Assembly (NCBI RefSeq): GCF_030149235.1
Contig: NZ_JASBRW010000024.1
Coordinates: forward strand, 1 to 64,000
Direction of reading: 5' to 3'
Length of the DNA stretch: 64,000 bases
Source: Maricaulis sp.
GTDB lineage: Bacteria > Pseudomonadota > Alphaproteobacteria > Caulobacterales > Maricaulaceae
The notes below the pieces were generated by a model. The model searched no databases, was not told the origin of the DNA, and saw only the letters and a program-made list of their open reading frames with translations. Shown piece by piece: positions 53,702 through 53,733 of the stretch (positions within the stretch are counted from its first letter, which is position 1; each line of letters begins with the position of its first letter). Both the position numbers and the translations under genes were made by a program.

Positions 53702-53733
53702 CATACGCGCGCGCACGCGTACGTGCGCGCGCG
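53702..53733. other. 32-nt alternating pyrimidine-purine tract (potential Z-DNA) in gyrB leader
   Basis: From 53702 every base alternates pyrimidine-purine, mostly CG steps. 53706-53733 also forms a perfect inverted repeat with 12-bp arms (CGCGCGCGCACG) around CGTA. Both features favour left-handed or cruciform DNA under negative supercoiling. It is 33-64 bp upstream of the gyrB start, inside its promoter or 5' leader. Confidence 0.7.

Follow-up and report, generated by a model that had tools for sequence, protein, structure and literature searches.

The gyrase promoters that respond to relaxation of the DNA are among the systems closest to the one described here. In Caulobacter, which belongs to the same order as Maricaulis, gyrB is induced by relaxation; the leader of the gene measures 170 nt, and 80 bp are sufficient as a promoter (PMC1175088). 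A study of the supercoiling sensitivity of promoters calls the activation of gyrA and gyrB by relaxation unexplained and lists, as one of the options, a competition from structural transitions at sites nearby (PMC8422995). Z-susceptible regions of the SIBZ type (PMC3024258) are enriched upstream of start sites, as a genome-wide tendency at mouse genes.

In the window (the whole stretch of 64,000 nt of a Maricaulis genome that was analyzed), a pyrimidine–purine alternation is present next to the predicted promoter of gyrB. It resembles the SIBZ-type regions in being a CG-rich alternation beside a promoter, with a flip predicted at moderate negative superhelix density, but it is usually the one site of its genome, at a gyrase gene, and it occurs genus-wide and recurs in another order. 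With the relaxation-stimulated gyrA and gyrB promoters of E. coli and Caulobacter, it shares the gene and the homeostatic logic; no Z-prone element is described for those promoters, however, and, in contrast to Caulobacter gyrB with its leader, the gyrB of the window looks leaderless. As in the bacterial inverted repeats that form cruciforms, a perfect palindrome is present in the window, but here the alternation is conserved and not the palindrome. Our search of the open-access literature returned no Z-DNA element for the gyrase genes of bacteria. On balance, we lean toward reading the tract as a selected Z-prone element that makes the gyrB promoter sensitive to supercoiling.

The tract and the gyrB promoter

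The tract extends from position 53702 to 53733 and reads, on the + strand, CATACGCGCGCGCACGCGTACGTGCGCGCGCG. Pyrimidines and purines alternate strictly over these 32 nt, and the alternation breaks on extension by one base at either end. Two arms of 12 bp (53706–53717 on the left and 53722–53733 on the right) are exact reverse complements of each other around CGTA. The gyrB coding sequence (51273–53669, − strand; Pfam DNA_gyraseB, DNA_gyraseB_C, Toprim, and HATPase_c) starts at the ATG at 53667–53669, which places the tract at −33 to −64. The earlier note had described a strict 32-nt alternation with a perfect inverted repeat of 12-bp arms at 33–64 bp before gyrB, and it was correct to the nucleotide on the alternation, on the arms, and on the distances.

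Such a length is far from what composition would give. In Markov sequences of 64 kb (orders 1 to 4 with the composition of the window, 60 simulations per order), the longest alternating run has a mean of 15–16 nt and a maximum of at most 22 nt, and the second-longest run within the window is of 15 nt. In the window genome (2.76 Mb, 90% complete), the gyrB tract is the sole alternation of at least 22 nt; since the tract occurs only once there, a REP-like repeat family is ruled out. The CG share is 0.67 and 0.62 vs. 0.39 in the other alternations of the window, an enrichment in CG steps that is expected if the cost of the B–Z transition matters. The tract thus has what is looked for in a Z-element, a long and strict Y–R alternation rich in CG. 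YR steps are also flexible, and the tract adjoins the −35 box, so that it could act as a spacer giving bendability to the B-DNA around the RNA polymerase, with no Z transition. However, the step that costs least in the Z form, CG, is overrepresented relative to CA/TG and TA, and flexibility does not need a strict alternation over 30 nt; we regard a flexible spacer as improbable. A coding reading, with a TTG-started extension of gyrB (53670–53747, −) in which the tract reads as RARTRARA, was rejected, since in relatives the tract changes in length by 2 nt at a time, which breaks the frame.

Between the tract and the gyrB ATG, a promoter of the form TRGYCR-N17-TASAA is observed at a fixed distance in 18/18 genus members. 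In the window, the predicted −35 box is TGGCCA (53698–53703, −), abutting or overlapping the tract, and the predicted −10 box, from the genus motif and the alignment, is TACAAA (53675–53680, −). The distance between TASAA and the ATG is 6–7 nt in 18/18, within the range of 5–8 nt, at conserved spacing, that is taken as a sign of leaderless genes. Because the promoter sits between the tract and the ATG, and so close to the latter, the start of gyrB in the genus is likely leaderless, with transcription predicted to begin at the ATG or immediately beside it, and the tract is most likely DNA upstream of the −35 box, touching it and outside the transcript. The location in a gyrB leader that had been proposed is therefore probably wrong. 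In Oceanicaulis and Glycocaulis without the tract, a promoter of similar shape is seen by eye at gyrB.

The promoter spacer also contains a match to GANTC, the CcrM-type methylation motif (53693–53697). Such sites occur in or beside the gyrB promoter at conserved offsets in 16/18 genus members, and 48 of the 58 Beijerinckiaceae loci have CGAATC upstream of gyrB. From these motifs, a cell-cycle methylation input to gyrB is possible.

Conservation of the alternation and of the palindrome

All of the 18 genus members examined have an alternating tract of 18–38 nt at the same gyrB position (at least 22 nt in 15 of them and 18–20 nt in the remaining three). The tract lies 32–37 nt before the gyrB ATG, with the exception of G002, in which a GGG interruption is present and the longest alternating piece, of 18 nt, ends 50 nt before the ATG. 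Outside the genus, a relative (G030) has a 40-nt tract at gyrB, and some Oceanicaulis have an alternation of 14–18 nt. In one Oceanicaulis (G125, L075), the alternation occupies the spacer between the −35 and −10 boxes of gyrB and is not upstream of −35. Upstream of the tract, the DNA is not alignable across relatives, and the gene preceding gyrB differs among them (in the window, it is a gene of the Rce1-like CAAX protease family, at 53772–54536, −, a neighborhood not retained in relatives); the tract, therefore, belongs to gyrB. Conservation in relatives, which the earlier note had named as a check, is found throughout the genus and, at gyrB again, in another order.

The changes in the tract are mainly transitions. 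In pairwise comparisons within the larger clade, there are 319 transitions and 34 transversions in the tract vs. 806 and 1697 at fourfold gyrB sites; by parsimony, changes between Y and R make up 9 of 50 in the tract, vs. 640 of 1067 at fourfold columns, with the caveat that aligning an alternating sequence favors in-phase pairing and that 2-nt slippage could help to maintain the alternation in the genus, although not in Bosea. Such an alignment bias does not account for the fact that each sequence still alternates after so many changes. The few transversions are apparently mostly at the ends of the tract as aligned. Within the genus, the tract length differs by steps of 2 nt.

The variation is unevenly distributed. 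The 12 promoter-proximal columns show almost no variation (4 changes, of which 0 are transversions), whereas the distal part is free to change by transition and differs in length (mostly 28–38 nt). The main rival explanation is built on that core: a regulator or nucleoid protein would bind the tract in B form, reading the alternating YR steps, with the proximal 12 nt as the core and a looser remainder. An activity of undefined identity, distinct from the polymerase, does bind the Caulobacter gyrB promoter (PMC1175088). The freedom of the distal part speaks against a protein site, as does the comparison of the Bosea and Maricaulis tracts, which have no fixed long word in common beyond the alternation. 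We consider a protein site unlikely, though it is the alternative to be taken most seriously.

The pairing was assessed by shuffling the order of the YR dinucleotides inside each tract, which keeps the alternation and destroys the pairing. Across the genus, the observed hairpin energy is not better than that of the permuted tracts (mean z −0.05). Perfect 12-bp arms are confined to two genomes, that of the window and that of its closest relative, G008 (P about 0.02 each); elsewhere, the perfect stems are of 4–9 bp in nearly all species (11 bp in one), the same as in the permutations. A conserved RNA hairpin or cruciform was rejected on these alternation-preserving permutations. In several species, the sense strand folds better than the antisense strand, but this G–U asymmetry is due to an excess of TG and is gone when compared with the permutations.

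A terminator or RNA hairpin that separates gyrB from the upstream gene would agree with the strong 12-bp hairpin into which the window tract can fold and with an upstream gene that is co-directional with gyrB. But the hairpin strength is not conserved beyond composition, and the upstream genes differ among relatives. At the tract, neither a T run after the hairpin nor an intrinsic terminator was found, and the tract has no match in Rfam. This possibility is, in our estimate, slightly more remote than that of a flexible spacer. A cruciform switch would use the perfect 12-bp arms of the window. Those arms are not conserved, and, in a simple model with assumed nucleation costs of 14–22 kcal/mol, extrusion of the 28-bp cruciform needs a σ of −0.043 to −0.066, more than the Z transition; a cruciform switch is hardly credible. 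Selection for the alternation, and not for the palindrome, is well supported by these sequence comparisons. The earlier note had spoken of a Z-DNA or cruciform element: The Z-DNA half is supported, with an alternation that persists although neutral sites are rich in transversions and that recurs in another order, and the cruciform half is not supported, with arms restricted to two close genomes and hairpins equal to the permutations.

Recurrence in Bosea and at gyrA

In 110 alphaproteobacterial gyrB loci (743 kb), there are six alternations of at least 16 nt, and four of them lie upstream of gyrB at a distance of no more than 300 nt (three in Bosea and one in a relative). An alternation of 16–24 nt occurs at gyrB in 25/30 Bosea loci and one of 18–21 nt in 5/28 loci of other Beijerinckiaceae, the family of Bosea, which belongs to another order than Maricaulis (the genus and family searches overlap, with two genomes common to both). 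In the 194 kb of loci from Bosea and its kin, every one of the 30 alternations of at least 16 nt falls in the 300 nt that precede gyrB. Across three Bosea genomes (18.7 Mb), 3/4 tracts of at least 20 nt are at gyrB. A second Bosea tract, in G162, was rejected as a gyrase-gene element, since it sits in a putative ABC transporter permease gene.

The Bosea tract ends in the −35 box of GTGAAA-N17-TATATT. Among its columns, 17/26 vary by transition and 3/26 by transversion, vs. 11/25 and 8/25 in the promoter spacer, and its alignment needs no indels. A neutral dinucleotide microsatellite, with the alternation kept by slippage, would fit the 2-nt length steps of the Maricaulis genus, but the tract is unique in its genome, its position is fixed in two orders, and the Bosea alignment is free of indels despite many transitions. 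Such a neutral origin appears very improbable.

No alternation longer than 15 nt is observed at gyrB in 80 further alphaproteobacterial regions, and this rules out a class-wide feature. Since most alphaproteobacteria are without a gyrB tract, control of gyrase does not require it. For Caulobacter gyrB, a response to relaxation is reported but no tract of this kind (PMC1175088). Together with the loss of perfect alternation at gyrB in G002, these points speak against the reading as a Z-prone regulatory element. From its distribution, the tract is apparently lineage-specific, with two or more gains in the same location.

In G002, where the gyrB tract is interrupted, the genome contains two tracts of at least 22 nt, and one of them, of 22 nt (L225:1052–1073, G002:C8), is upstream of gyrA. 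Its sister G005 has a 16-nt alternation upstream of gyrA, and in the fourteen other genomes (16 examined) no tract is found there. Therefore, gyrA was rejected as a general second site. The G002 gyrA tract alongside a decayed gyrB tract is a single case, and a suggestive one.

Alternating tracts of 28 nt are also present in G121, G122, and G032 (L218:1006–1033, L219:1065–1092, L220:997–1024, and L223:1067–1094). Closely downstream of them is a small gene with the motif ALDLGT(S/A/T)TGWAL, possibly for a RuvC-like protein and maybe in mobile elements; the two copies scanned have no Pfam match.

Energetics and a possible supercoiling switch

The B–Z transition was modeled with the SIBZ energies (PMC3024258) for an isolated domain, competition and proteins being ignored. 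In this model, half-transition of the window tract is predicted at a σ of −0.033 to −0.042 for domains of 10 to 2.5 kb, and of −0.033 to −0.036 in an isolated domain of 5–10 kb; for the relatives, Bosea included, the range is −0.032 to −0.041 (5–10 kb isolated domain). The tract would, like a Z-element, flip at moderate negative superhelix density in such an isolated domain, and the flip of 32 bp would absorb about 6.5 turns.

The property that matters would be the strict CG-rich Y–R alternation, that is, a low cost of passing from B to Z. With high negative supercoiling near the promoter, the tract would flip to Z-DNA, placing a B–Z junction at the −35 box and draining the local torsional stress. 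RNA polymerase would then bind or open the promoter less, and gyrB expression would go down. Once gyrase activity runs low and the DNA relaxes, the tract would return to the B form, and gyrB would be turned on. The sign (less transcription with the Z form) is taken from the report that relaxation induces gyrB in Caulobacter (PMC1175088); the flip in the cell is inferred, as is this sign. Judged from the sequence, a feedback of the tract on gyrB expression, as the earlier note had proposed, is plausible.

More tentatively, and with somewhat less confidence than for the promoter element itself, the Maricaulis and Bosea tracts may represent a convergent Z-DNA switch, set against the −35 box of gyrase genes in two or more orders of alphaproteobacteria and reading supercoiling directly. 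The loop would be free of proteins, the product of the enzyme shutting its own promoter, and, where the gyrB tract has decayed as in G002, a tract could appear at gyrA.

It has been difficult to establish a native and conserved role for Z-DNA in bacteria. The tract is a natural, conserved, and usually single-copy Z-prone element at a gyrase gene, where activation by relaxation is still called unexplained (PMC8422995). With culturable hosts and many natural length variants, both the role of Z-DNA and the response of gyrase to relaxation become directly testable.
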